33,928 nt of DNA. Source: Alphaproteobacteria bacterium. GTDB lineage: Bacteria; Pseudomonadota; Alphaproteobacteria; ATCC43930; Allostellaceae. Positions within the stretch are counted from its first letter, which is position 1. The number at the start of each line of letters is the position of its first letter. Below are positions 8,551 to 33,479 of this stretch, in pieces. Location: contig JADZBA010000162.1 of NCBI GenBank assembly GCA_020852355.1, positions 1-33,928 of the forward strand. The letters are read 5' to 3'. The translations under genes and the position numbers were made by a program. The notes beneath the pieces were generated by a model. The model was not told where the DNA came from. It searched no databases and saw only the letters and a program-made list of their open reading frames with translations.

Positions 8551-9657
8551 CTAGGCCGCGTACTTCTTCACCTTGTCCCAGTCGACCGCGATGCCGAGGC
8601 CGGGCGCCTCGGTGAGGCGCACCTCGGCCGGGTGGGGCGGCAGCGGGTCGACCAGGATGTCGTCGATCGCGCGTGCCAGTGGCGAGGCATGGCAGCCCCG
8701 CGCGGCGTCGATCGAGGCGGCGAAGTGGTGGGCGGCGGCCAGCCCGATGCCCGACGCCGTCGAGCAGCCGGGCAGCACCTCGAGCGCGGCGGCGGCGCAG
8801 ATCTGGGCGATCTCGCGGCACTTGCTGATGCCGCCCAGCATGGCGAGCTTCACATGGATGCCGTCGGCGGCACCCATCGCGGCCACCGTCAGGATGTCCT
8901 GGGGGCCGCCGATGCTCTCCTCCAGCGCCAGCTTGTTGGGCGTGCGCCGGCGCAGCTCCGCCAGCCCCTGCAGCTCGTGGCGCGGCAGCGGCTGCTCGAC
9001 CCAGTCGACGCCGGCGGCGGCGAAGCGGGGCAGCGCGTTCAGCGCGTCCTTGAAGGTGTAGCCCTCGGTGCAGTCGATCTTGAGGCTGACCGCGGGCCCC
9101 AGCGCCTTGTGCACCGCCTCGACGACGGCGAGGTCGTGGGCCGGGCCGGCGGGATGGCCGCACTTGATCTCGATCTGGCGGCAGCCGTCGGCGACGCCCC
9201 GCACCGCCATGTCGACGGCGCGCTCGGGCGACATGAAGCCGATGCCGTAGCCCGGCCCCTCGACGATGACCGGCGCGTCGGTGCCGCCCAGATAGCGCCA
9301 GACCGGGATGCCCAGCGCGCGGCCGATCAGGTCGTGCAGCGCGATGTCGACCGCCCCCTTGGCGGGAAGCTGGCCGTTGACGACGCCGTCCATGCGCCGC
9401 CAGACGTCCCGGATCGAGAACGGGTCCGCGCCGATGATCGCGGGCGCCAGGTACTTCTCCAGGATCGCCGCGTGCGCCTCCATGACGGTCGAGTTCCACT
9501 TCGCCTCGGTCACGCATTCGCCGACGCCCTCGACGCCGTCGTCGGTGCGGATGCGCACGATGACGTTCTCCAGCGCCGTCAGCGTCAGCGTCGCGATGTG
9601 GTGCACCTCGCGGTTGGGGATGCGGTAGGGGATGATGTCGACCCGGGTGATCTTCAT
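8551..9657 (-). CDS. Enolase superfamily enzyme, mandelate racemase/muconate lactonizing type
   Basis: This 368-residue protein has an N-terminal capping domain (MKITRVDIIPYRIP) and a TIM barrel. Metal-ligand positions are D195 (KIDCTEGY), E221 (WVEQPLP) and E246 (LALEESIG), with catalytic lysines K165 (IEIKCG) and K270 (GIHVKLAMLGGI). The lysine pair places it in the muconate-lactonizing-enzyme subgroup, which holds cycloisomerases, dipeptide and N-acylamino-acid epimerases and proline-type epimerases/dehydratases. Two departures are visible: the first Lys of the KxK motif is Glu163, and the third metal ligand is Glu rather than Asp. It is the last gene of the amino-acid ABC operon, so an amino-acid-derived substrate is likelier than a sugar acid or muconate. 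Confidence 0.9.
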   Translation of the reverse strand: MKITRVDIIPYRIPNREVHHIATLTLTALENVIVRIRTDDGVEGVGECVTEAKWNSTVMEAHAAILEKYLAPAIIGADPFSIRDVWRRMDGVVNGQLPAKGAVDIALHDLIGRALGIPVWRYLGGTDAPVIVEGPGYGIGFMSPERAVDMAVRGVADGCRQIEIKCGHPAGPAHDLAVVEAVHKALGPAVSLKIDCTEGYTFKDALNALPRFAAAGVDWVEQPLPRHELQGLAELRRRTPNKLALEESIGGPQDILTVAAMGAADGIHVKLAMLGGISKCREIAQICAAAALEVLPGCSTASGIGLAAAHHFAASIDAARGCHASPLARAIDDILVDPLPPHPAEVRLTEAPGLGIAVDWDKVKKYAA

Positions 9658-9687
9658 GACGGCGCCGCTCCTCGCGGATGCGTGGGA

Positions 9688-10368
9688 TCAGGTGGCGCGC
9701 ACGCCGCCGGTCGTCGCGTCCTCGAGACGGCGGCTCAGCAGCGACAGCGCGTAGTTGATGGCGAAGTAGACGACGGCGACCAGCACGTAGACCGGCAGCG
9801 GCCGGTAGGGCGGGCTGGTCGTGATCAGGATCGCGCGCTCGAAGAACTCGTGCACGCCGATCACGACGACCAGCGAGGTCGACTTGATGAGGGCGATGAG
9901 CTGGCTCAGGAGGGCCGGCACCATGCGGCGCAGCGCGATCGGGAAGCGGATCAGCAGGAACACCTGCGGCGGCGCGAAACCCTGGGCCTCGGCCGCCTGG
10001 ATGACCCCGCGATCGACCGAGAGGATGCCCGCCCGCATGATCTCCGCCACCACCGCCGCGGTGAAGCCGGAGAGCGCGATGACGGCGGCGGGGAACGGGT
10101 CGAGGTTGAGGTCGAGCAGCGGCTTGGAGGCGAAATAGACGGTGAAGATGATCAGCAGCAGCGGCAGGCTGCGGATGACGTCGATGTAGAGGGCCGCCGG
10201 CCAGCGCACCGCACGCAGCCGCGACATCCGCGCCAGCGCCAGTGCGGTGCCCAGCACGAAGGCGAGCACCGCGGAGAGCGCGGTCAGCGCGAAGGTCATC
10301 GCCAGGCCGCCGGCGAGCAGCCGCATGACGCCGGCGTTGAGCAGCCAGCCGAGGTCGAGCGCGCTCAC
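9688..10368 (-). CDS. Polar amino-acid ABC transporter permease (HisM/GlnP family)
   Basis: This is a 226-residue inner-membrane permease with an N-terminal GVMRLLAGGLAMTFALTALSAVL segment. The conserved EAA loop reads IQAAEAQGFAPPQVFLLIRFPIALRRMVPALLSQLIALIKSTSL, which is diagnostic of the polar amino-acid uptake family. The YIDVIRSLPLLLIIF segment is also typical. It overlaps the next permease upstream by 4 bases, so the two subunits are likely made in equal amounts and act as a heterodimer. Thirty bases separate its end from the enolase-superfamily gene. Confidence 0.93.
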   Translation of the reverse strand: MSALDLGWLLNAGVMRLLAGGLAMTFALTALSAVLAFVLGTALALARMSRLRAVRWPAALYIDVIRSLPLLLIIFTVYFASKPLLDLNLDPFPAAVIALSGFTAAVVAEIMRAGILSVDRGVIQAAEAQGFAPPQVFLLIRFPIALRRMVPALLSQLIALIKSTSLVVVIGVHEFFERAILITTSPPYRPLPVYVLVAVVYFAINYALSLLSRRLEDATTGGVRAT

Positions 10369-21079: not shown

Positions 21080-21910
21080 TCAGCACACGGCGCGATGGCG
21101 CTCCTTGCAGATCGCGACCACCTCGTCGGGGTCGCGCTTCCACCAGTTGCCGGCGGAGAAGATCTCGACCTCGTGCAGGCCGGTGTAGCCGGCCGCCTCG
21201 ACCAGCCCGCGGATCGCCCTTATGTCGATGACCCCGTCGCCCATCATGCCGCGGTCGAGCAGCAGGTCGGTGGTCGGCACCAGCCAGTCGCAGATGTGGA
21301 AGGCGAGGATCCGCTCCGCGCCGGCGCGCGCGATCGCCCGGGCGAGGTTCGGGTCCCACCAGGTGTGGTAGACGTCGACCGCCACGCCGACGCCGGGACC
21401 CAGCGCGTCGCAGAGATCGAGCGCCTGGTCGAGCGTGTTCACGCAGGCGCGGTCGGCGGCGTACATCGGGTGCAGCGGCTCGATCGCCAGCGCCACGCCG
21501 GCGGCGCGCGCGTCGGGCAGGATCGCGGCGATGCCGTCGCCGACCATCGCCCGCGCGCCGGCGATGTCCCTCGATCCGGCGGGCAGCCCGCCCGCCACCA
21601 GCACCAGGCAGCGCGCGCCCAGCACCGCCGCCTCCTCGATCGCCCGGCGGTTGTCGGCGATGGCGGCCGCGCGGCCGGCCGCGTCGGACGCGGGGAACAG
21701 GCCGCCGCGGCACAGACCGGTGACCGCGAGCCCGGCGTCGCGGATGCGCCGTGCCGCCTCGCCGAGGCCGAGCTCGGCGACCTTGTCGCGCCACGGCGAG
21801 ATGCCGCCGAGGCCGTGGCGGGCGCAGCCCTCGATCGCCTGGGCGAGCGTCCAGCGCTCGCGCACGGTCGCGGTGTTGAGCGACAGGCGGGACGTCTCGG
21901 GGACGGCCAT
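21080..21910 (-). CDS. Sugar phosphate isomerase/epimerase family protein (AP endonuclease 2-like TIM barrel)
   Basis: This 276-residue TIM-barrel protein belongs to the xylose isomerase-like family. Probable metal ligands are the Glu in ALAIEPLHP, the Asp in VAVDVYHTWWD, the His in LAFHICDW and the Glu in GLHEVEIFS. These four are the usual Glu-Asp-His-Glu site. The start ATG overlaps the stop of the DUF993 gene (TGATG), so it is translationally coupled. It is the last gene of the six-gene leftward operon. The family isomerises or epimerises keto-sugars and related polyols, and some members lyse 3-keto-glycosides. The operon context points to a sugar-like or cyclitol-like intermediate, but this is an inference. 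Confidence 0.88.
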   Translation of the reverse strand: MAVPETSRLSLNTATVRERWTLAQAIEGCARHGLGGISPWRDKVAELGLGEAARRIRDAGLAVTGLCRGGLFPASDAAGRAAAIADNRRAIEEAAVLGARCLVLVAGGLPAGSRDIAGARAMVGDGIAAILPDARAAGVALAIEPLHPMYAADRACVNTLDQALDLCDALGPGVGVAVDVYHTWWDPNLARAIARAGAERILAFHICDWLVPTTDLLLDRGMMGDGVIDIRAIRGLVEAAGYTGLHEVEIFSAGNWWKRDPDEVVAICKERHRAVC

Positions 21911-23073
21911 CACGCGATCCCGTGCACCGCCATCACCTTGCGCATGCGGTCGGCCGCGACCTCGGGGTCGCGCAGCAGGCCGGCCTTGTCGGCGAGGCGG
22001 AACAGCTCGGCCAGATGGCCGATCGAGCGCGCGCTCTGCTGCCCGCCGACCATGGTGAAATGGTCCTGCAGCCCGTTCAGCCAGGCCATGAACACCACGC
22101 CCGTCTTGTAGAAGCGGGTCGGCGCCTTGAAGATGTGGCGCGACAGGGGCACGGTCGGCGCGAGGATGTCGTGGAAGTCCTGCCGCCGGTCGGCGGCGAG
22201 CGCGGCCAGCGCGGCAGAGGCGGCCGGTGCGATCGCGTCGAAGATGCCGAGCAACGCGTCGGAATGGCCCTCGCCGTCGCCGTCGATCAGCTCCGCGTAG
22301 TTGAAGTCGTCGCCCGTGTACATGCGCACGCCGGCCGGCAGGCGGCGGCGCATGGCGATCTCCTTGTCCTTGTCGAGCAGCGAAATCTTGATGCCGTCGA
22401 TCCTGGCGGCGCAGTCGCGCAGGATCGCCAGGCAAACCTCCATGCCCCGGTAGTGGTCCTCGTGGCCCCAGTAGCCCCTGAGCGCCGGGTCGAACATCTC
22501 GCCCAGCCAGTGGATGATCACCGGCTCGCGGACCTGGCGCAGCACCCGGGCGTAGACCCGGTGGTAGTCGTCGGGCGAGCGCGCCGCCGCCGCCAGCGCG
22601 CGGCTGGCCATCAGGATGATGCGGCCGCCGGCCGCCTCGACCGCGCCGACCTGCTCCTCGTAGGCGGCGATGACGTCGTCGATCCCGACGCCCGGACCCG
22701 GCATCAGATGGTCGGTGCCGGCGCCGCAGAACAGCACGGCGCCGGGCCGCCCCGAGGCCGCCTCGACCGAGCGGCGGATCAGCTCGAGCGAGGTCTTCCA
22801 GTCCAGCCCCATGCCGCGCTGGGCGGTGTCCATCGCCTCGGCGACGCCGAGGCCGAGGTCGAACAGGCGCGAGCGGAAGGCCAGCGTGCGGTCCCAGTCG
22901 ATCGCCGTGTCGACCCAGGGATCGTGCTCGGCGCGCGGATCGGCGACGACGTGGGCGGCCGCCAGCGCCACGCGGTTGAAGGGCACGTTGCTGCGTTCGG
23001 GGAAGCGCCGCGGCGCGCCCGTGGTGTAGCGGGCGAGGCGGCCATCGGCGGTCGGAAGGTCGAGGGTCGGCAT
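21910..23073 (-). CDS. DUF993 family protein (dihydrodipicolinate-synthase/aldolase-like barrel)
   Basis: This 387-residue protein carries the DUF993 signature blocks: an N-terminal FPERSNVPFNRVALAAAHVVADP, a central PVIIHWLGEMFDPALRGYWG and a barrel strand DGIKISLLDKDKE, whose Lys may correspond to the Schiff-base lysine of class I aldolases. FNYAELIDGDGEGHSDALLGIFD follows. The family is assigned to the class I aldolase/DHDPS-like superfamily. As far as I know its reaction is not established. It begins 23 bases after the oxidoreductase gene with a GGAGGT site and is coupled to the isomerase gene. Retro-aldol cleavage of a keto-acid or keto-sugar made by its neighbours is a reasonable guess. 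Confidence 0.85.
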   Translation of the reverse strand: MPTLDLPTADGRLARYTTGAPRRFPERSNVPFNRVALAAAHVVADPRAEHDPWVDTAIDWDRTLAFRSRLFDLGLGVAEAMDTAQRGMGLDWKTSLELIRRSVEAASGRPGAVLFCGAGTDHLMPGPGVGIDDVIAAYEEQVGAVEAAGGRIILMASRALAAAARSPDDYHRVYARVLRQVREPVIIHWLGEMFDPALRGYWGHEDHYRGMEVCLAILRDCAARIDGIKISLLDKDKEIAMRRRLPAGVRMYTGDDFNYAELIDGDGEGHSDALLGIFDAIAPAASAALAALAADRRQDFHDILAPTVPLSRHIFKAPTRFYKTGVVFMAWLNGLQDHFTMVGGQQSARSIGHLAELFRLADKAGLLRDPEVAADRMRKVMAVHGIA

Positions 23074-23096
23074 GGATGCACCTCCAGGGGGCGGGC

Positions 23097-24242
23097 CTAC
23101 AGCGCCGGCACGTCGATCCAGCGGCGCTCCCGCCAGCTCTCATGGCCGAGCATGGCGAGCTGCACGCCCTTGGCGCCGGCCTTCAGGTCCCAGGGGAACG
23201 GCGTGCCGTCGTAGAGGTGGCGGATGAACAGCTCCCACTCGACCTTGAACGCGTTGTCGTAGGCGATGTTGTCCGGCACCTCCTGCCAGGTCCGGTAGAA
23301 GTCGATCGCCTGCGGCACGTCCGGGTTCCACACCGGCTTGGGCGTGGCGATCCGCGCCTGGCTGTGGCAGCGCTGCAGGCCGGCGACCGCCGAGCCGAGC
23401 GTGCCGTCGACATGGAAGGTGACGAGGTCGTCGCGGCGCACGCGTGTCGCCCACGAGCTGTTGATCTGCACCACCACGCCGTCGCCGGCGACGAAGGTCG
23501 CGTAGGCCGCGTCGTCGACGTCGCAGTCGTAGGGCCGCCCGTCCTCGTCCCAGCGCCGGGGGATGTGGGTGGCGCCGAGGCACGACACGCTCTTCACCTC
23601 GCCGAACAGGTTGTCGACGACGTAGCGCCAGTGGCAGAGCATGTCGAGGATGATGCCGCCGCCGTCCGCCTTGCGGTAGTTCCAGGACGGGCGCTGGGCC
23701 GGCTGCCAGTCGCCCTCGAACACCCAGTAGCCGAACTCGCCGCGCACCGAGAGGATGCGGCCGAAGAAGCCGCTGTCGATCAGCATCTTCAGCTTGCGCA
23801 GGCCGGGCAGCCACAGCTTGTCCTGGACGACGCCGTGGCGGATGCCGGCCGCCTCGGCGCGCCGCCACAGGTCGACGGCGTCCGCCAGCGAGTCCGCGGT
23901 CGGCTTCTCGCAGTAGACATCCTTGCCGGCCGCGATCGCCTTGCGCACGAGATCGGCGCGCATGTTGGTCGAGGCCGCATCGAAGAAGAGCGTGTCCTCC
24001 CGGTTCGCGATGGCGGCGTCGATGTCGGTCGTCCAGCGCGCGACGCCGTGCGCCCTGGCCAGCGCCTCGACCTTGGCGGCGTTGCGGCCGACCAGGATCG
24101 GGTCGGGCATCACCCGGCTGCCGTCGGCCAGCGCCACGCCGCCCTGGGCGCGGATCGCCAGGATGGAGCGCACGAGGTGCTGGTTGGTCCCCATGCGTCC
24201 GGTGACGCCGTTCATGATGATGCCGAGGCGCTTGGTCGCCAT
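23097..24242 (-). CDS. Gfo/Idh/MocA family NAD(P)-dependent oxidoreductase
   Basis: This is a 381-residue two-domain dehydrogenase. The N-terminal Rossmann fold has [15 protein letters not shown], a form unlike the common GxGxxG and closer to a dihydrodipicolinate-reductase start. The catalytic EKP motif is in [14 protein letters not shown]. The C-terminal domain has the [23 protein letters not shown] signature, with the Asp and His expected near the substrate. [11 protein letters not shown] replaces the more usual ATPNxxH segment. It follows the ABC ATPase gene by 3 bases. The family oxidises sugars, inositols or their glycosides at a hydroxyl group; the substrate is unknown here. Confidence 0.9.
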
Positions 24243-24245
24243 GCG

Positions 24246-25010
24246 CTACTCCATGCCCAGGAGATGGTAGATCCGCCGCGAGTAGTCCCCGAATGCGGCC
24301 GTCGTCTTCATGTCCAGCGTGCGCGGGTAGGGCAGCTCGATGCGGATATGGTCGGCCATGCGCGCCGGGCCGGCGGTCAGCACCACCGTGCGGGTGGCCA
24401 GGAACACCGCCTCGGCGATGCCGTGGGTGACGAAGAGGATCGTCTTGCGGCTCTCGCGCCAGATGCGCAGCAGCTCCAGGTTCATCTTCTCGCGGGTCAG
24501 CGCGTCGAGCGCGCCGAACGGCTCGTCCATCAGCACCAGCTTGGGGTCGTGGACGAGGGCGCGGGCGATCGCCGTGCGCTGCTGCATGCCGCCCGACAGC
24601 TCGTAGGGGTACTTGTCCTCGGCCCCGGCCAGCCCGACCATGGCCAGGAGGTCGCGGGCGCGCTCGCGGCTGGCCTTCGCGGGCAGGCCGAGAATCTCGG
24701 CCGGCAGCATGACGTTGTCGAGGATGCGCCGCCATTTCAGCAGCAGCGCCTGCTGGAAGACCATGCCGATGTCGCGCGACGGATCGAACGGGTTGGCCTG
24801 GTTGCCGATCCGGACCGAGCCGCCGTCGTGCGGGTGCAGGCCGGCCAGGATCTTCAGCAGCGTCGACTTCCCGCAGCCCGACGGGCCGACCATGGTGACG
24901 AGCTCGCCCGCCTCGACGTCGAAGGTCACCTCGGATACCGCCAGGAACTCCTGCCCGCGCGTGCGGTAGACCTTGCGCACGCCCTGGAGGCGGATGAAGG
25001 GCTCGGTCAT
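24246..25010 (-). CDS. ABC transporter ATPase (nitrate/sulfonate/taurine type)
   Basis: This 254-residue ATPase belongs to the SsuB/TauB/ThiZ-like family. Walker A GPSGCGKST, Q-loop MVFQQALLLKWRRILDNVMLPAEILG, signature LSGGMQQRTAIARAL and Walker B LVLMDEPFGALDALTREKMN are complete. The LSGGMQQR and FGALDALTR forms are characteristic of this subfamily. It lies 10 bases downstream of its permease gene. The operon holds no binding-protein gene. The NMT1/THI5-like receptor at 29796, linked by a shared operator-like sequence, is the best candidate partner. Confidence 0.93.
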   Translation of the reverse strand: MTEPFIRLQGVRKVYRTRGQEFLAVSEVTFDVEAGELVTMVGPSGCGKSTLLKILAGLHPHDGGSVRIGNQANPFDPSRDIGMVFQQALLLKWRRILDNVMLPAEILGLPAKASRERARDLLAMVGLAGAEDKYPYELSGGMQQRTAIARALVHDPKLVLMDEPFGALDALTREKMNLELLRIWRESRKTILFVTHGIAEAVFLATRTVVLTAGPARMADHIRIELPYPRTLDMKTTAAFGDYSRRIYHLLGME

Positions 25011-25020
25011 GCGGGCGGGG

Positions 25021-25785
25021 TCAGGAGACGCGGGCGTCGCGCACGACGACCAGCCGCTCCAGCACGATCACCAGGGCGTAGAGCAGCACGCCGAGCAGGC
25101 TGATCAGGATGACCGCCATGAACATCGCCGCGGTGTCGAGCGTCACCTGCACCTGCAGCATGAGGTAGCCCAGGCCCTTGTCGGAGCCCAGGAACTCGCC
25201 GACGATGGCGCCGGCGACCGCCAGGATCGCCGCCACCTTCATGCCCGAGAAGATGTAGGGGAGCGCACCCGGAAGCTGGATCTTCACGAAGATCTGCCAC
25301 TTCGAGCCGCGCAGCGAGCGCACGAGATCGAGCAGGTCCGGCTCGACCTCGCGCAGGCCGCGCGCCGTCGTCAGCACGATCGGGAAGAAGGCGATGGAGA
25401 AGGCGATCAGCGCGTTGGGCAGCAGGCCGTAGCTGAACCACACGATGAACAGCGGCCCGAGCGCCACCTTCGGGATCATGTTGAAGCTGACCAGCACCGG
25501 CATGAAGGCGGCGTCGAGCCAGCGCGACCAGGTGAAGACGAGCGCCGCCAGCACGCCGCCGCCGACCGCCAGCAGGTAGCCGCCGTAGATCTCGGCCGCG
25601 GTGACGAGGATGTTGTCCCACCAGCGGTACTCCGGCTGGATCAGCGCCAGCACGGTGTCCCACGGCGTCGGCATCACGAACTTCGGCACGTTGCCGAGCG
25701 TCGTGAACAGATGCCAGGCGAGGATGACCGCGACGTGCGCCAACGTCGCGAGCCCGATCCGCCACGCGCTTTCCCCCGCCGTCAT
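25021..25785 (-). CDS. ABC transporter permease (nitrate/sulfonate/taurine type)
   Basis: This is a 254-residue integral membrane protein of the SsuC/TauC-like family with six predicted segments. The cytoplasmic EAA-type loop is LDLVRSLRGSKWQIFVKIQLPGALPYIFSGMKVAAILAVAGAIVGEFLGSDKGLGYL, whose GA.VGEFLGS.KGLGYL ending is typical. It begins 34 bases after the PhyH gene. With the ATPase at 24246 it forms an importer that lacks a receptor within the operon. Confidence 0.92.
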   Translation of the reverse strand: MTAGESAWRIGLATLAHVAVILAWHLFTTLGNVPKFVMPTPWDTVLALIQPEYRWWDNILVTAAEIYGGYLLAVGGGVLAALVFTWSRWLDAAFMPVLVSFNMIPKVALGPLFIVWFSYGLLPNALIAFSIAFFPIVLTTARGLREVEPDLLDLVRSLRGSKWQIFVKIQLPGALPYIFSGMKVAAILAVAGAIVGEFLGSDKGLGYLMLQVQVTLDTAAMFMAVILISLLGVLLYALVIVLERLVVVRDARVS

Positions 25786-25819
25786 CGCCGCCCCGTCGTC
25801 CCCCTCGGCCCGGTCGTCG

Positions 25820-26563
25820 TCAGCTCACGCGCAGGAACGCCGCCTCGTCGTAGGGCAGGGCGGCGTTCGTGAAGGCGTTTCCGTCGCCAACATAGTGGAA
25901 GGCGACGGCGCGGCGCCACCGGGTCGAGCGGTTGGCGCCCGACTGGTGCAGCGTGCCGCCGTGATGGAACGACACGCCGCCCTTGGGCACCGGTGCCGGC
26001 GTCATCTCGATGCCCCGGGCGATCTCCGCGGGGACCTGCAGGTTGAACGGCTCGTCGGGCGGTGCGGCGTGGGGCAGCAGCGGCCGCCGGTGGCTGCCGT
26101 GGCCGAAGGCGAGGCAGCCATTGTCGACGGTGGCCGTGTCGAGCGCGACCCAGGCGGTGACGAGGCGCTCAGGGTCGTCGGGGCCGAAGTAGACGTTGTC
26201 CTGGTGCATGGGCTTCGGCCCACCGCCCTCGGGCGGCTTGAAGAATATCTGGCTGAAGGAGAGGGTGACGCCGGGGCCGATGATCTCCTCGACCAGGCTC
26301 ACGAGGCGAGGGTCGGTCGCGAGCGCGCGGAAGACCGGCCGCGCGGCGTGCGGGTTGTCGAGCTTGCGCAGCACGGTGCGCGCGGTGACGCCGCCGTCGA
26401 CGTACCAGCGCCGCTGCTCGGGGGCGAGGTGGGCGAGGAAGGTCTCGCCCCACGCCTCGGCGTCGGCGATGGCGGCGTCCATCTCGGCCGCGGTGAACAC
26501 GGCAGGCACGGTCAGGTGACCGGCGGCGGCGTAGAACCGCCGCTCGACCTCGGCCAGGCCCAT
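25820..26563 (-). CDS. Phytanoyl-CoA dioxygenase (PhyH) family Fe(II)/2-oxoglutarate oxygenase
   Basis: This 247-residue oxygenase has a double-stranded beta-helix iron site H120-x-D122 (KPMHQDNVYFG) and the distal H206 in HHGGTLHQSGANRS, followed by an Arg-rich 2-oxoglutarate-binding strand. LDTATVDNGCLAFGHGSHR is the typical PhyH central motif. The ATG at 26563 is preceded by a GGAGGAAA site. It is the first gene of the six-gene operon, immediately behind an operator-like inverted repeat (26579-26594). Bacterial PhyH proteins hydroxylate many non-CoA substrates, so it probably starts breakdown of the imported compound by hydroxylation. Confidence 0.9.
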   Translation of the reverse strand: MGLAEVERRFYAAAGHLTVPAVFTAAEMDAAIADAEAWGETFLAHLAPEQRRWYVDGGVTARTVLRKLDNPHAARPVFRALATDPRLVSLVEEIIGPGVTLSFSQIFFKPPEGGGPKPMHQDNVYFGPDDPERLVTAWVALDTATVDNGCLAFGHGSHRRPLLPHAAPPDEPFNLQVPAEIARGIEMTPAPVPKGGVSFHHGGTLHQSGANRSTRWRRAVAFHYVGDGNAFTNAALPYDEAAFLRVS

Positions 26564-26691: not shown

Positions 26692-28281
26692 ATGACGACC
26701 ACCGCCACCCTCGCGCTGGAAGGCCGCATCGACCGGCTGGCCGCCGCCGTGGCGCGGCCCGATGGGCCCGGCTGCGCCCTGGGCATCGCCCGTGGCGGCG
26801 AGGTGCTGCTGCGCAAGGGGTACGGCCTGGCCAGCGTCGAGCACGGCGTGGCGATCGGTCCGGGCACCGTCTTCCGCATCGCCTCGGTGACCAAGCAGTT
26901 CACCTGCGCCGCCGTCCTGATGCTGGTGCTGGAGGGCCGCCTCGGCCTCGACGACGAGGTGCGCACGCACCTCTCCTGGCTGCCCGACTACGGCACGCCG
27001 GTGACGCTGCGCCATCTCCTGCACAACGTCAGCGGCCTGCGCGATTTCCTGGAGCTGACGCGCTGGGGCGGCATGAGCCTCGACCGGCCGGTGGGCGAGG
27101 ACGATCTCGTCGCCGCGATCGGCCGGGCCGGCGGCCTGAACTTCGCGCCGGGCAGCCGCTTCCTCTACAGCAACACCAACTTCCTGCTGCTCGGCCGCAT
27201 CGTCGAGCGGATCGAGGGCATGCCGCTGGAGAGCGTCCTGGAGCGCCGCTTCTTCGCGCCGCTCGGCATGGCGGCGACCCTGCTGGTGCGCGATCCGGCG
27301 ACCGTCGTGCCGCGGCTGGCGACGGCGTACCTGCGCCAGCCCGACGGGACGGTGGTGCGGGCGCACCAGGCCTATCCGACGGTGGGCGAGGGCGGCATGG
27401 TCTCGACGGTCGACGACCTGCTGCGCTGGGCGCGCCATTTCGACCGGCCCTTCGTCGGCGGCGGCCACCTCGTCACGGCGCTGCAGGTCGAGCTGGCACT
27501 GACCGGCGGCGCCGCGCAGCCCTATGCGCGCGGGCTGGAGGTCGGACGCTGGCGCGGCCTGCGCACCGTCGGCCATGGCGGGTTGTGGCCGGGCTACCGC
27601 ACGGAGCTCCTGCTGGTGCCCGAGCGCGATCTCGCCGTCGTCGCGATCGCCAATGTCGACGCGATCGATCCCCACCGGCTGGCGCGCCGCGCGGTCGACG
27701 CCGCGCTGGCCGAGGAAGGGCTGCCGGCCGAGCCCGCGCTGCCGGGCTGGGTCGCCGGCCACGCCGGGCGCTGGGTCGACTCCGAGGAGCTGGCCGTGCT
27801 CGACCTGGCCGTCGCCGGCGGCGAGGCGACGGGGCGGATGAACGGCGCCGGCTTCGGCTTCCTGCCGGCCGCCGACGGCTGGCTGCGCGCCTTTCGCGGC
27901 GCCTTCGAGCTGGCGGTGCGCGCCGACGGCGACGGGCTGCTCGCCGACACGGGCGCCGGCCGCACGGTGCGCATGGCGCGGGTCGTCCCCGTCGCGCCGC
28001 CGGCGGGCCTCGCCGGCACCTACCATGCGGCGGAGCTCGACACGACCTGGACGGTGGCGCCGCATGGCGACGGCCTGGCCGTGCGGGCGCGCGGGCCGCT
28101 CGCCGCCGCGGGTCCCTGGCCGGTCACGCCGGTCGCAGCCGACGTCGTCGAGATCGTCATGCCCAACCGCTGGCTGACCGCGACCGTCGTCGCCCATGTC
28201 CTGCGCGGCGCCGGCGGCATCACCGGGCTGCGCGTCTCCAGCGGCCGCATCAAGAACCTGCGCTTCGCGCGCACGGCGTAG
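26692..28281 (+). CDS. Serine beta-lactamase-like hydrolase, D-aminopeptidase (DAP) type
   Basis: This 529-residue protein has a class C beta-lactamase/DD-peptidase-fold domain at residues 10-330. Its catalytic S65-V-T-K68, Y159-S-N161 and H295-G-G motifs are intact. About 200 further residues contain beta-rich modules (LDLAVAGGEATGRMNGAGFGF; TWTVAPHGDGLAVRARG). Length, motif positions and two-part C-terminus resemble the Ochrobactrum D-stereospecific aminopeptidase (about 520 residues; Ser62, Tyr153, His287), which releases D-amino acids from peptide N-termini. No signal peptide is seen, so it is cytoplasmic. It diverges from the PhyH operon across 128 bases holding an operator-like site, and is 2 bases from the MBL gene. 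Confidence 0.82.
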   Translation: MTTTATLALEGRIDRLAAAVARPDGPGCALGIARGGEVLLRKGYGLASVEHGVAIGPGTVFRIASVTKQFTCAAVLMLVLEGRLGLDDEVRTHLSWLPDYGTPVTLRHLLHNVSGLRDFLELTRWGGMSLDRPVGEDDLVAAIGRAGGLNFAPGSRFLYSNTNFLLLGRIVERIEGMPLESVLERRFFAPLGMAATLLVRDPATVVPRLATAYLRQPDGTVVRAHQAYPTVGEGGMVSTVDDLLRWARHFDRPFVGGGHLVTALQVELALTGGAAQPYARGLEVGRWRGLRTVGHGGLWPGYRTELLLVPERDLAVVAIANVDAIDPHRLARRAVDAALAEEGLPAEPALPGWVAGHAGRWVDSEELAVLDLAVAGGEATGRMNGAGFGFLPAADGWLRAFRGAFELAVRADGDGLLADTGAGRTVRMARVVPVAPPAGLAGTYHAAELDTTWTVAPHGDGLAVRARGPLAAAGPWPVTPVAADVVEIVMPNRWLTATVVAHVLRGAGGITGLRVSSGRIKNLRFARTA

Positions 28282-28283
28282 CG

Positions 28284-29021
28284 ATGGTGCGCCTGCGCTT
28301 CCTCGGCTGCGGCGACGCCTTCGGCTCGGGCGGGCGGTTCCAGACCTGCTTTCTGGTGGCCTCTCCCTCGGCGACCTTCCTCGTCGACTGCGGCGCCTCC
28401 TCGATGATCGCCATGCGCCGCTTCGCGGTCGATCCCAACGCCGTCGACGCGGTGTTCGTGACGCATCTCCACGGCGACCATTTCGGCGGCCTGCCCTTCC
28501 TGCTGCTCGACGCCCAGCTCGTCAGCCGGCGGACGCGGCCGCTCGTACTGGCCGGCCCGCCCGGCCTCGGCCAGCGCCTCAGCGAGGCGATGGAGGTGAT
28601 GTTCCCGGGGTCGTCCACCGTGCGCCGCTCCTTCCCGGTCGAGATCGTCGAGCTGCCGGCGCGCGTCGCCACGACGGTCGGCGCCGTGACGGTGACGCCG
28701 TTCGAGATGGTGCACTGGTGCGGGGCGCCGCCCTACGCGCTGCGCCTGGAGGTCGACGGCAAGGTGCTCGCCTACACCGGCGACACGGAATGGGTCGACG
28801 CCATTGTGTCGGCCGCCCGCGGCGCCGATCTCTTCGTGGCCGAGGCCTACTTCCACGACAAGCGGATGAAGTACCACCTGGACTGGGCGACGCTGGCCGC
28901 GCACCTGCCCGAGATCGCCGCCCGGCGCGTGGTGCTGACCCATCTCTCGGCGGACATGCTGGGCCGCCCGCCGCCATCGGGCGTCGAGGTCGCCGAGGAC
29001 GGCCGGGAGATCGCGCTGTAG
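28284..29021 (+). CDS. MBL-fold metallo-hydrolase (RNase Z-like subgroup)
   Basis: This 245-residue metallo-beta-lactamase-fold protein begins with VRLRFLGCGDAFGSGGR, typical of the RNase Z/arylsulfatase-like branch. It has the zinc motif THLHGDHFGG, then YTGDTEW (the bridging Asp), FVAEAYFHD and the C-terminal VLTHLSADM His. It lacks the exosite arm of tRNase Z, so a small-molecule esterase, lactonase or phosphodiesterase role is likelier than tRNA processing. It starts 2 bases after the D-aminopeptidase-type gene and is certainly co-transcribed with it. Its end converges on the TetR gene 7 bases away. Confidence 0.88.
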   Translation: MVRLRFLGCGDAFGSGGRFQTCFLVASPSATFLVDCGASSMIAMRRFAVDPNAVDAVFVTHLHGDHFGGLPFLLLDAQLVSRRTRPLVLAGPPGLGQRLSEAMEVMFPGSSTVRRSFPVEIVELPARVATTVGAVTVTPFEMVHWCGAPPYALRLEVDGKVLAYTGDTEWVDAIVSAARGADLFVAEAYFHDKRMKYHLDWATLAAHLPEIAARRVVLTHLSADMLGRPPPSGVEVAEDGREIAL

Positions 29022-29028
29022 CGTCCGG

Positions 29029-29685
29029 TCACGGCCGCAGGAAGCGCAGCACCACGTCGACGTTCTGGGCCGAGCGCGCCGCCGTCGCCGCCGGGTCGGC
29101 GAGGTCGCGCCCGAACACCACCGACAGCGTGTGGATGTTCGAGAAGTAGAAGTAACCGAGTGCCGCGATGGTGATGTAGAGGTCGAGCGGGTCGACGCCG
29201 CGGCGAAACGTGCCGTCGGCGGCGCCGCGCTCCAGCAGCCGGCCGATCGTGTCGATGACCGGCAGGTTGACCGCCCGGACCTTGCCCGAGCGGGCGAGGT
29301 GCCGGGCGCGGTGCAGGTTCTCGTTGGCCAGCAGATGGATGAAGCCGGGATTGTCGCGGCAGAAGGCGAAGTTGTAGGCGACCAGCCGGGCGATTCCTTC
29401 GGCCGGCGGGCAGTCCTCGACGGCCAGCGCCCGCTCGTGGCCGCGGATGCGGTCGTAGGCCTGCTCCAGCACCGCGAGGTAGAGCCCGGCCTTGCTGCCG
29501 AAATAGTGGTAGATCATGCGCTTGTTGGTCGCCGCCCGGGCGGCCACCGCGTCGACTCGCGCGCCGCCCAGCCCCTTGGCCGAGAACTCCGTCCAGGCCG
29601 CCTCCAGCAGCCGGGCGCGGGTCTCCTCCGGGCGCCGCGCGCGCGGCGCCGGCGGCCGGCGGCGTCGATTGACAGGGGGCGACAC
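29029..29685 (-). CDS. TetR-family transcriptional regulator
   Basis: The helix-turn-helix is near the N-terminus: EETRARLLEAAWTEFSAKG, then GGARVDAVAARAATNKRMIYHYFGSKAGLYLAVLEQAY, with YHYFGSK typical of the family. The GTG start at 29685 gives 218 residues, a normal TetR length. An in-frame ATG at 29772 would add 29 residues encoded by DNA that contains the operator-like repeat at 29702-29717, so I prefer the later start, though its ribosome-binding site is weak. It diverges from the NMT1/THI5-like receptor gene. Autoregulation and control of the receptor and the PhyH operon are inferred from the shared inverted repeat. Confidence 0.87.
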   Translation of the reverse strand: MSPPVNRRRRPPAPRARRPEETRARLLEAAWTEFSAKGLGGARVDAVAARAATNKRMIYHYFGSKAGLYLAVLEQAYDRIRGHERALAVEDCPPAEGIARLVAYNFAFCRDNPGFIHLLANENLHRARHLARSGKVRAVNLPVIDTIGRLLERGAADGTFRRGVDPLDLYITIAALGYFYFSNIHTLSVVFGRDLADPAATAARSAQNVDVVLRFLRP

Positions 29686-29701
29686 GCGCGAATACCGTCC
29701 G

Positions 29702-29717
29702 GTAACCAACCGGTTAC
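29702..29717. promoter_or_regulatory. GTAAC-N6-GTTAC operator, copy 2 (TetR/receptor divergent promoter)
   Basis: GTAACC-AACC-GGTTAC is a perfect 16-base palindrome centred 94 bases before the receptor start and 17 bases before the preferred TetR start. It shares both GTAAC/GTTAC arms and the exact six-base spacing with 26579-26594; the merged consensus is GTAAC(C/T)-N4-GGTTAC. Position beside a divergent TetR gene is the classical arrangement for autoregulation. Confidence 0.75.
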
Positions 29718-29795
29718 AGCGATAGCGGAAAGGCGCCGGCAAGGCGAGACCCGCGGCGGGCCGGTCGCTCACAGCGCAACGTAGGGAGGTCTGGG

Positions 29796-30806
29796 ATGCG
29801 GATCGTGATGGGTGCCGCGGCCGCGGCGGTCGCGCTGGCCGGGTTCGCCGCGCCGGCGGGCGCGCAGAAGCTGGAGAAGATCGAGCTCTTCCTCAACTGG
29901 GTGCCGGGCGGCGACCACGCGCCCTACTATTATGCCCGGAAGATGAAGCGCTACGAGGCGGTGGGGATCGACCTCGACATCCAGCCCGGCAAGGGCTCGG
30001 CCGTCGCCATCCAGCGCGCCGCCGCCGGCGCCAGCCAGCTCGGCCTCGCCGACATGGGTGCGGCGCTGATCGCCCGCGGCAAGGGGGCCGAGACGGTGGC
30101 GGTGATGAACGTCTACGCCAACTCGCCGCAGGGCCTCTATTGGCTGAAGAGCTCAGGCATCAGGTCGGCCAAGGATCTCGCCGGCAAGAAGATCGGCAAC
30201 CCGCCGGGCGATGCCGCGCGCGTCGTCTTCCCGGCGCTGGCCAAGGCGGTCGGCATCGACCCGGCCAGCGTCACCTGGGTCAACATCGACGCCAACGCCA
30301 AGCTCGCCGCACTGAAGTCGAAGGCGATCGACGCGACGACGTCGTTCTACAACATCCACCACATCTTCCAGCGCGAGCTGGGCGACGACATGGGCTTCCT
30401 GCCGTGGCGCGAGGCCGGCGTGAACCCCTACGGCAACTCGATCCTGGCGAACGCCAGGTTCTTCGCCGAGAAGAAGCCGCTGGTCGCCGCCTTCACGAAG
30501 GTCACCCAGAAGGCCTTCGCCGACTGCGTCGCCGACCCCAGGCCCTGCGTCGAGGCGCTGGTCGAGGCCAACGGCGCCCTCAAGCTCGACAACGAGATGG
30601 TGAACTGGAGCCTGGTGACCGTCCTGATGAGCGACGAGATCTCGCGCTCCGTGGCGCTCGGCTGGCACGACGACAAGCGCATGGCCGCCGACTACGAGCT
30701 GGCGGCGACCTACTTCAAGCTCGACCAGGCCTTCGACGTGAAGACCGTCTACACCAACGAGTTCCTCGACAAGTCGATCAAGATGACCCAGCCGAAGACG
30801 AACTGA
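29796..30806 (+). CDS. ABC transporter substrate-binding protein, NMT1/THI5-like
   Basis: This 336-residue periplasmic receptor has a signal peptide ending APAGAQ at about residue 24. The mature start IELFLNWVPGGDHAPYYYARKMKRYEAVGIDLDIQPGKGSAVAIQRAAAG is characteristic of the NMT1/THI5-like group, which binds pyrimidine and thiamin precursors and many other small molecules. KDLAGKKIGNPPGDAARVVFP is the second-lobe motif. A strong GGGAGGT site precedes the ATG. No permease or ATPase gene is adjacent, and the receptor-less ATPase/permease pair at 24246-25785 is of the matching type. A REP-like palindrome follows the gene and may end or protect its transcript. Confidence 0.92.
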   Translation: MRIVMGAAAAAVALAGFAAPAGAQKLEKIELFLNWVPGGDHAPYYYARKMKRYEAVGIDLDIQPGKGSAVAIQRAAAGASQLGLADMGAALIARGKGAETVAVMNVYANSPQGLYWLKSSGIRSAKDLAGKKIGNPPGDAARVVFPALAKAVGIDPASVTWVNIDANAKLAALKSKAIDATTSFYNIHHIFQRELGDDMGFLPWREAGVNPYGNSILANARFFAEKKPLVAAFTKVTQKAFADCVADPRPCVEALVEANGALKLDNEMVNWSLVTVLMSDEISRSVALGWHDDKRMAADYELAATYFKLDQAFDVKTVYTNEFLDKSIKMTQPKTN

Positions 30807-31008: not shown

Positions 31009-32580
31009 ATGAACGAGCCACGAGAGCCGCACACGCCGGCCGCCGCCGCACAGGTGGGCATGACGATCGCGGTGCATGCCGCCACGGCACCGGACCGGAT
31101 GGCGATCGATGGGCCGCTCGGGCGCCGGACCTTCGGCGAGCTGAACGCGGCCTGCAACCGGCTCGCGCGGTTCCTCAGGAGCCGCGGCCTCGGGGCCGGC
31201 GACTCGGTCGCCATGCTGGTGCCGAACCGGCCGGAGTTCGTCGAGGTCGTCTATGCCGGCCTGCGCGCCGGCATCCGCGTGACGCCGCTCAACTGGCACC
31301 TCGTGCCGGAGGAGGCGGCCTATGTCGTGCGCGACTGCGAGGCCAAGGCGCTCATCGCCGACACGCGCTTCGCCGCCACCGCGCGCATCGTCGCCGATAC
31401 GCTGCCGCTCGCCACGCGGCTCTGCGTGGGCGGCGCCATCCCCGGCTTCGATTCCTATGACGACGCATTGGCGGGACAGGCCGCGCGCGATCTCGACGAC
31501 CCCGTCCTCGGCTCCTCGATGCTCTACACCTCGGGCACCACTGGCCGGCCCAAGGGCGTCTATCGGCTGAACGCGCCGCTCGACCTGCTGGCGGCGATCG
31601 TCGGCTCGGCCGCGCTCGAGCCGGGAGTCGACCTCGCGCTCAATACCGGGCCGCTCTACCACGCGGCGCCGCTGCGGCTGAACCTGCAGCTCTTCCTCAA
31701 CAACGGCGTCGGCGTCCACCTCATGGACCGCTGGACGCCGGAGGAGACGCTGGCCCTCATCGAGCGCCTCGGCGTCACCCACACCCACATGGTCCCGACC
31801 ATGTTCCACCGTCTGCTCGCGTTGCCGGAGGCCGAGCGCGCGCGCTATGCCCTGGGCTCGTTGCGCTGGGTGCTGCACGGGGCGGCACCCTGCTCGGTCG
31901 CGCTCAAGCGGCGGATGATCGAGTGGCTGGGACCGGTGCTCTACGAGTACTACGCGGGCACCGAGGGCGGCGGCACGTTCATCGCGTCCTCCGAGTGGCT
32001 GGCGCGGCCCGGCAGCATCGGACGGCCGGCGCCGGGCTGCCGCATCGAGGTGCGGGACGATGCCGGCGCCCCGCTGCCGGCCGGCGCATCGGGGCGCGTC
32101 TTCGTCCACACTCCGGCGGCGTACCGCTTCGAGTACTTCAAGGACCCGGCGAAGACGGCCGCCGCCTGGGACGGCGACTGGTTCACCATGGGCGACATCG
32201 GCTACGTCGACGCCGAAGGCTATTTCTACCTCTCGGGACGCAGCGCCGAGACGATCATCTCGGGCGGCGTCAACATCTACCCCGCCGAGATAGACGCGGT
32301 GCTGCACCAGCACCCCGCCGTCGACGACGTCGCCACGGTCGGCGCACCCAACGAGGAGTGGGGCGAGGAGGTGGTGGCGGTGGTGCAGCCGGCCGCCGGC
32401 CACGCCCCGTCCGCCGCGCTGGCGGAAGATATCCGCGCCTTCTGCCGCGGCCGCATCGCCGACTTCAAGGTGCCGCGCCGCATCGACTTCGTGGCGGCGC
32501 TGCCGCGCCTGGAGACCGGCAAGATCCAGCGCCGCCTCGTGCGCGACCGCTACTGGCAGGGCCACGCCCGCCAGATCTGA
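31009..32580 (+). CDS. AMP-forming acyl-CoA synthetase
   Basis: This 523-residue member of the ANL superfamily activates a carboxylic acid to its CoA thioester with ATP, in the cytoplasm. The AMP-binding P-loop-like motif YTSGTTGRPKGV, the A5 motif YEYYAGTEGGG, the A7 region FTMGDIGYVDAEGYFYLSGR and the C-terminal catalytic lysine in LETGKIQRR are all present. SGGVNIYPAEID marks the acyl-CoA synthetase branch rather than adenylation domains. It starts after GGGAGG. It lies 26 bases upstream of the PEP-mutase-family gene, so they form a two-gene operon. The acid it activates cannot be predicted; medium-chain or aromatic acids are typical for relatives. Confidence 0.92.
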   Translation: MNEPREPHTPAAAAQVGMTIAVHAATAPDRMAIDGPLGRRTFGELNAACNRLARFLRSRGLGAGDSVAMLVPNRPEFVEVVYAGLRAGIRVTPLNWHLVPEEAAYVVRDCEAKALIADTRFAATARIVADTLPLATRLCVGGAIPGFDSYDDALAGQAARDLDDPVLGSSMLYTSGTTGRPKGVYRLNAPLDLLAAIVGSAALEPGVDLALNTGPLYHAAPLRLNLQLFLNNGVGVHLMDRWTPEETLALIERLGVTHTHMVPTMFHRLLALPEAERARYALGSLRWVLHGAAPCSVALKRRMIEWLGPVLYEYYAGTEGGGTFIASSEWLARPGSIGRPAPGCRIEVRDDAGAPLPAGASGRVFVHTPAAYRFEYFKDPAKTAAAWDGDWFTMGDIGYVDAEGYFYLSGRSAETIISGGVNIYPAEIDAVLHQHPAVDDVATVGAPNEEWGEEVVAVVQPAAGHAPSAALAEDIRAFCRGRIADFKVPRRIDFVAALPRLETGKIQRRLVRDRYWQGHARQI

Positions 32581-32606: not shown

Positions 32607-33479
32607 ATGTCGAAGCGCGCCACCTTTCGCGCCAAGCTGCAGCAGAAGCCGCTGACCGCCATCATCGGCGCGCACAACCCGCTGGGCGCGCGGCTCGCCG
32701 AGGAGGCGGGCTTCGACGGCATCTGGGCGAGCGGCTTCGAGCTCTCGGCCTCCATGGCGGTGCCCGACGCCAGCATCCTCACCATGACGCAGCATCTCGA
32801 GATGACGCGCGCCATGGATGCCGCCATCGCCATCCCGGTGGTGGCCGACATCGACACCGGCTTCGGCAACGCCACCAACGTCATCCACGCGGTCCGCCAG
32901 TACGAGGCGGCGGGCGTCGCCGCACTGGTGATCGAGGACAAGACCTTCCCCAAGGACACCAGCCTGCTCGCCGGCGGCCGGCAGGAGCTCGTGCGGATCG
33001 CCGAGTTCGAGGGCAAGCTCGCCGCCGCGGTGGCGACGCGGCGCGACCCAGACCTGCTCGTCGTCGCCCGCACCGAGGCGCTGATCGCCGGCCTCGGCCA
33101 GGAGGAGGCGCTCGCCCGCGCACGGGCCTACGAGAAGGCCGGCGCGGACGCCATCCTGATCCATTCCAAGCGCAAGACGCCGGACGAGATCGTCGCCTTC
33201 GTCGAGGCGTGGGACGGCGCCATCCCGCTCGTCCTGGTGCCGACCGCCTATCCCGACCTGACGGAGGCGCGCATCCGCGATCTCGGCAAGGTCCGGCTCG
33301 TCATCTACGGCAACCATGGCGTCCGCGCCGTCGCCCAGGCGCTGGCCGACACCTTCCGCCGCATTCGCGCCGACGGCGGCGTGCTGGGCGTCGAGAAGGC
33401 CATCGCGCCGACCGAGCGCGTGTTCGCGCTGCAGGGGGTCGAGCAGATGAAGCGCGAGGAGGAGAAGTTCCTGCGGTGA
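32607..33479 (+). CDS. pphA: Probable phosphonopyruvate hydrolase (PEP mutase/isocitrate lyase superfamily)
   Basis: This 290-residue TIM-barrel enzyme has the Mg-binding region ADIDTGFGNATNV (residues 80-92) and a gating loop E110-D-K-T-F-P-K-D-T118-S119. PEP mutases have EDKxFPKxNS with Asn at the position occupied here by Thr118. Thr at this place is the feature reported for phosphonopyruvate hydrolase of Variovorax sp. Pal2, which cleaves the C-P bond to pyruvate and phosphate. GRQELVRI, ARTEALIAGLGQ, ILIHSKRKTPDEI and IYGNHGVRA also agree with that enzyme as I remember it. No transaminase or phosphonate transporter is nearby. An oxaloacetate- or dimethylmalate-acting relative is the alternative, but the EDK..PK loop argues against it. 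Confidence 0.8.
   Translation: MSKRATFRAKLQQKPLTAIIGAHNPLGARLAEEAGFDGIWASGFELSASMAVPDASILTMTQHLEMTRAMDAAIAIPVVADIDTGFGNATNVIHAVRQYEAAGVAALVIEDKTFPKDTSLLAGGRQELVRIAEFEGKLAAAVATRRDPDLLVVARTEALIAGLGQEEALARARAYEKAGADAILIHSKRKTPDEIVAFVEAWDGAIPLVLVPTAYPDLTEARIRDLGKVRLVIYGNHGVRAVAQALADTFRRIRADGGVLGVEKAIAPTERVFALQGVEQMKREEEKFLR

Follow-up and report, generated by a model that had tools for sequence, protein, structure and literature searches.

The gene at 32607-33479 on the forward strand of the window analysed here, a stretch of 33,928 nucleotides from an alphaproteobacterial draft genome (566 contigs, hereafter G000), raises two questions: is its product a phosphonopyruvate hydrolase (PPH, PalA), and, if so, where would such an enzyme obtain its substrate beside an acyl-CoA synthetase gene? 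Variovorax-type palA genes are described in clusters with a LysR regulator, a transporter and palB (PMC10574752). Such palAB clusters are known but uncommon, with 50 reported in 19,425 complete genomes (PMC8154272), and palA is reported in 201 genomes (PMC10574752). The available portions of the palA/PPH literature yielded no counts of PPH genes lacking PalB. We found no literature on Stella vacuolata and phosphonate, and no link between palA and an acyl-CoA synthetase appeared in any title or abstract among the matches listed.

Identity of the gene product

The open reading frame at 32607-33479 is intact, with an ATG start, 290 codons, a stop within the span and codon use of the coding type. 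Its closest relatives are found in Stella vacuolata (90%) and Stella sp. ATCC 35155 (88%), and G000 and three other genomes form one genus, Stella. Among these four genomes the gene evolves under purifying selection, with dN of 0.05-0.08 against dS of 0.37-0.48 over the six pairs. Within G000 it is one of 13 matches to the protein; the other 12 all fall short of E 1e-60, a threshold that PEP mutases in other genomes do reach.

The predicted protein aligns with the PPH of Variovorax (2DUA) without a single gap, residues 1-290 on 1-290, with 178 of 290 positions identical (61%). This is its best match among solved structures (376.5 bits, E 6.6e-112), the second being a PEP mutase at 298.3 bits. 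Moreover, it scores 406.6 bits on the NCBIfam PPH equivalog TIGR02321, above the cut-off of 374.4. Since this equivalog match and the ungapped identity are accompanied by a conserved set of active-site residues and by the absence of the lyase-type loop (see below), the reading as PPH is well supported. Thus the proposal of the first-pass annotation, a PPH that cleaves the C-P bond, is upheld: the product is very probably an enzyme of this known kind, predicted to free phosphate from phosphonopyruvate. Stella would thereby be one more organism that has a specific phosphonopyruvate hydrolase.

Gating loop and active site

The gating loop reads EDKTFPKDTS in the translation, with Thr at residue 118, just as it had been read at first. 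Codons 108-120 (VIEDKTFPKDTSL, 32928..32966, forward strand) cover the start of the loop region, as placed by the alignment and by the PPH loop printed in PMC7916636. Because the alignment with 2DUA is ungapped, residue numbers in the window protein are those of the Variovorax enzyme, and the earlier remark that the number of this Thr coincides in the two proteins is correct. PMC7916636 gives 117-DTSLRTDGRQELVR-130 for the PPH loop and 121-TNSLHDGRAQPLAD-134 for that of PEP mutase; residues 117-130 of the window PPH are DTSLLAGGRQELVR.

We compared 97 PPH-type rows. Three pairs among them are duplicates owing to overlap between collections (L009/L090, L010/L091 and L042/L092), and the overlapping copies L001 and L126-L129 had been excluded at the outset. 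At residue 118, 91 of the 97 carry Thr and the remaining 6 Ser (85 and 6, respectively, of the 91 non-Stella rows), and residue 44 is Phe in all. We checked 16 active-site positions, assigned partly after PMC7916636, and all 16 are invariant across the 97 rows. The window PPH shares these positions, as well as its length and Thr118, with PalA of Variovorax sp. Pal2 (2DUA, 2HJP, 2HRW). The metal- and substrate-binding residues Asp54, Asp81, Asp83, Glu110, Lys116, Arg155 and His186 are likewise unchanged in 97/97 rows, most of their roles being taken from PMC7916636. Relative to the Variovorax protein, the window PPH has Thr156 for Val156, the common state in the family (64/91 non-Stella rows). 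At positions at least 93% constant outside Stella, all Stella rows differ at residue 269 only, where Thr replaces Val.

Phylogenetic position

The main tree was built from 106 rows, after removal of one row of each duplicate pair. In this tree the Stella sequences belong to an 11-row clade (97/93) together with MAG sequences, and none of the 11 rows has a PalB relative in its fetched flank. The characterised PPH belongs to a 42-row clade (100/98), in which 8 rows are PalB-linked, and a further 35-row clade, mostly alphaproteobacterial (99/93), contains 16 PalB-linked rows. The Stella branch is therefore separate from that of the characterised enzyme and not nested within it, which counts somewhat against the PPH reading, as does the position of the PEP mutases among the PPH rows in a smaller tree of 49 rows, for which two distant lyases served as the root. 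All 94 PPH rows group together with no more than 92/52 in the 106-row tree. The 49-row tree test rejects neither a single clade of PPH (p-AU 0.316) nor a grouping of PEP mutase with the Stella branch (p-AU 0.21). The trees thus leave the branching of PPH relative to PEP mutase unsettled; they neither prove nor harm the assignment, which is carried by the residues and the HMM.

The acyl-CoA synthetase pair and other neighbours

Immediately upstream of the PPH gene lies an AMP-binding acyl-CoA synthetase gene (31009 or 31054..32580, forward strand; PF00501 and PF13193 above cut-off), which is probably co-transcribed with it. The pairing noted in the first-pass annotation is real. The two genes are 26 nt apart in the window, and the gap measures 13, 17 and 19 nt in the remaining three genomes of the genus; the pair is kept in 4/4 Stella genomes while the flanking genes change. 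The synthetase was found at 4 of the 90 PPH loci searched, all from Stella (L009 and L132 being one genome), and the pair is absent from every non-Stella locus among the 90. The only solved structure matched at 1e-60 is FadD5. Among 289 genomes of the class, the closest relative of the synthetase outside the genus (57%) occurs in G051, where the adjacent genes are SDR-like and acyl-CoA-dehydrogenase-like, as judged by eye from their N-termini; this genome has no PPH match at 1e-60. The synthetase is probably a fatty-acid-type enzyme.

Farther upstream are a gene for an NMT1/THI5-like solute-binding protein (29796..30806, forward strand; PF09084) and, divergent from it, one for a TetR-family regulator (29029..29772, reverse strand; PF17938 and PF00440). 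Both are near the pair in 3/4 Stella genomes and are missing from the G002 stretch. The solute-binding protein was rejected as a member of the unit on account of this absence, of its variable distance to the synthetase, and of a carbonic-anhydrase-type gene lying between the two in L010.

No PalB, LysR or Pal-type transporter gene was recognised beside the window PPH, nor any other phosphonate gene among the window proteins scanned, which represent part of the window's genes. The description of the gene as lying outside a phosphonate gene cluster is thus true locally. A PhyH protein encoded at 25820-26563 was considered as a methylphosphonate hydroxylase and discarded, with 39.7 bits against a cut-off of 500. 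It is part of an apparent operon on the reverse strand (21080-26563) comprising genes for the PhyH dioxygenase, an ABC permease, an ABC ATPase, a GFO/IDH/MocA oxidoreductase, a DUF993 protein and a 277-aa protein; this run has no binding-protein gene, and the NMT1-type protein at 29796-30806 could serve it. The DNA is 71% GC, and genes were called with a model trained on the PPH codons, a self-trained caller having chosen shadow frames. The forward-strand frames at 28196-29146, 24973-25869, 23076-25100 and 29131-29781 were set aside as such shadow ORFs, with no convincing family.

PPH genes in other genomes

Of the loci compared, 80 came from genome contigs and were the best 80 of 318 confirmed relatives, so that weaker PPH relatives lie outside the survey. 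Flanks of up to 8 kb were fetched, less at some loci, and the window itself is short on one side. A PalB relative (at least 45% identity) lies within the fetched flank at 26 of the 90 loci, one of which (L042) probably concerns a housekeeping aspartate transaminase. As only these 26 flanks contain one, PPH without an adjacent PalB is common, and the origin of phosphonopyruvate at most of the PPH genes surveyed becomes a fair and testable question.

A same-strand gene stands immediately upstream (<150 nt) at 50 of the 86 callable loci: it is PalB in 22, a gene of an Achromobacter setting in 18, the Stella synthetase in 3 and another gene in 7. The plasmid loci L102, L104 and L106 were left out of this count (86/89) and read from the deposited annotation, and for L150 the longest ORFs were used, with names given by eye. 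According to deposited annotation, the classical arrangement occurs on Variovorax, Tistrella and Pseudosulfitobacter plasmids; PalB also adjoins PPH in Sinorhizobium meliloti, and Bradyrhizobium sp. 4 has a PalB-free arrangement.

The 19 Achromobacter loci (e.g. L018, L019 and L021) share a conserved PalB-free setting: upstream of PPH stand genes resembling those for penicillin-binding proteins and hemerythrins, and downstream one for a SulP-type transporter (named by eye). On rhizobial plasmids, an alkaline phosphatase family gene and transporter genes are found near PPH (L102, 3059-4573; L104, 1-831).

Phosphonate genes elsewhere in Stella

Phosphonate catabolism is encoded elsewhere in G000. 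PhnW, PhnA and PhnY genes stand side by side, their products all above the respective cut-offs; PhnC and PhnE also pass theirs, and a binding protein exceeds the cut-off of the phosphate/phosphite/phosphonate subfamily. A phosphonate role for the window PPH is plausible because of these genes, and Stella would hold a specific hydrolase beside PhnW-PhnA-PhnY in the same genome. L013 belongs to the 11-row clade of the Stella sequences, and its PPH gene adjoins PhnE-PhnE-PhnC-PhnD-like genes in tail-to-tail orientation. Three of these were tested: PhnE and PhnC pass their equivalog cut-offs, and the binding protein, at 185.6 bits, is above the subfamily cut-off of 112.05 and below the PhnD cut-off of 261.1. 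PhnJ (C-P lyase) was found in the three other Stella genomes (G001-G003) and not in the draft G000.

The first-pass annotation had also suggested, from the pairing with a synthetase, that the physiological role of the PPH may differ from the known one. This suggestion is not needed, because the pairing is limited to Stella, PalB-free PPH is common and other phosphonate-catabolic genes are present in the genome. The data do not support a different role and do not refute it either, the pair being conserved in 4/4 genomes.

Proposed reaction and its alternatives

Membership of the PPH family and possession of its residue set are properties of the predicted protein itself, and a reaction can be proposed from them. 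Asp81, with Asp54, Asp83 and Glu110, would hold the bound 2-oxo acid together with a divalent metal, and the phosphonyl group would be held by Arg155 and His186. Cleavage of the C-P bond would then be dissociative, as the literature describes for the Variovorax enzyme and PEP mutase. With Thr rather than Asn at position 118, water would take the phosphoryl group to give pyruvate and phosphate. The change from Asn to Thr is usually seen as steering the reaction to water. The role of residue 118 is nevertheless disputed: PMC7916636 doubts that this change alone decides the chemistry, which weakens the PPH reading to that extent. The window copy is predicted to be active and to act on phosphonopyruvate in the cell.

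The strongest alternative is that an enzyme of the PPH fold in the Stella branch has come to use a different 2-oxo acid, for instance by C-C hydrolysis or decarboxylation of an oxaloacetate-like acid, with the product activated by the synthetase. The constancy of the pair amid changing flanks would fit such a shift, as would the lack of PalB relatives in the 11 rows of the Stella branch, some of whose flanks, like that of the window, are short on one side. L134, a lone relative from a genome of the same taxonomic order, offers a further point in its favour: an MmgE/PrpD family gene (8597-9904, reverse strand) lies 18 nt upstream of PPH, in a single case. However, Stella retains the loop and all metal- and phosphonyl-binding positions, residue 269 alone being different among the sites at least 93% constant elsewhere, and the synthetase relative in G051 does without any PPH. 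We therefore consider a change of substrate improbable.

It is far less credible that the protein is a PEP mutase making phosphonopyruvate from PEP for phosphonate synthesis. PEP mutase (1M1B, 5UNC) belongs to the same superfamily, with the same metal site and equivalents of Arg155 and His186, and the branch order is unsettled, as described above. Yet the window protein scores 276.2 bits on the PEP mutase model TIGR02320, below the cut-off of 319.55, and no phosphonopyruvate decarboxylase was recognised among the window proteins scanned. Where the window protein has Thr118 and Phe44, Asn and Leu are found in all five PEP mutase rows, of which two are solved and three come from genomes; this is in line with the Asn first given for PEP mutase, and a mutase was rejected on these residues and the score.

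The loop Cys of 2-methylisocitrate lyase and its relatives is catalytic. A lyase of the 2-methylisocitrate, dimethylmalate or oxaloacetate acetyl hydrolase type has next to no likelihood: these enzymes share the fold and the metal-binding acids and give weak HMM matches, but the window PPH lacks the Cys loop (KKCGH or KRCGH) present in 7/7 aligned lyase-type paralogs of its own genome (7 of the 12 paralogs), reaches 162.8 bits against a cut-off of 354.4 on the methylisocitrate lyase (PrpB) model TIGR02317, and is placed well apart from the lyase rows by the tree (100/100). A placement with such lyases was what the first-pass annotation had named as refuting its reading.

Possible sources of phosphonopyruvate

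A point against the PPH reading is that, unlike in the Variovorax cluster, the neighbour is a synthetase and PalB is not adjacent. The substrate might come from phosphonoalanine through a non-adjacent transaminase, or from another oxidation, and the synthetase would then be an operon partner of separate function. A candidate transaminase is a PalB-like or AspB-like protein (G000:C150), the closest G000 relative of rhizobial PalB (57% identical), which could perform the phosphonoalanine transamination. This protein may also be a plain aspartate transaminase, because it scores 589.3 bits on that model (cut-off 617) and is encoded apart from PPH.

Alternatively, the Stella branch could be a PalB-free PPH lineage fed by another route, either from phosphonolactate via a dehydrogenase or, in Stella itself, from a compound linked to the acyl-CoA synthetase. 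We regard this as rather unlikely; if true, it would represent an undescribed entry into C-P bond hydrolysis.

2-hydroxyacid dehydrogenase-like genes, a possible route from phosphonolactate to phosphonopyruvate, lie directly 3' of PPH in L014 (1488-2429, the only one scanned) and L056 (8977-9942), and two genes downstream in L061 (9897-10853). A DUF1932 dehydrogenase gene (6-phosphogluconate dehydrogenase-like) is found near PPH at 5 of the 90 loci, in different branches (L011, 8879-9778; L012, L036, L058 and L077).
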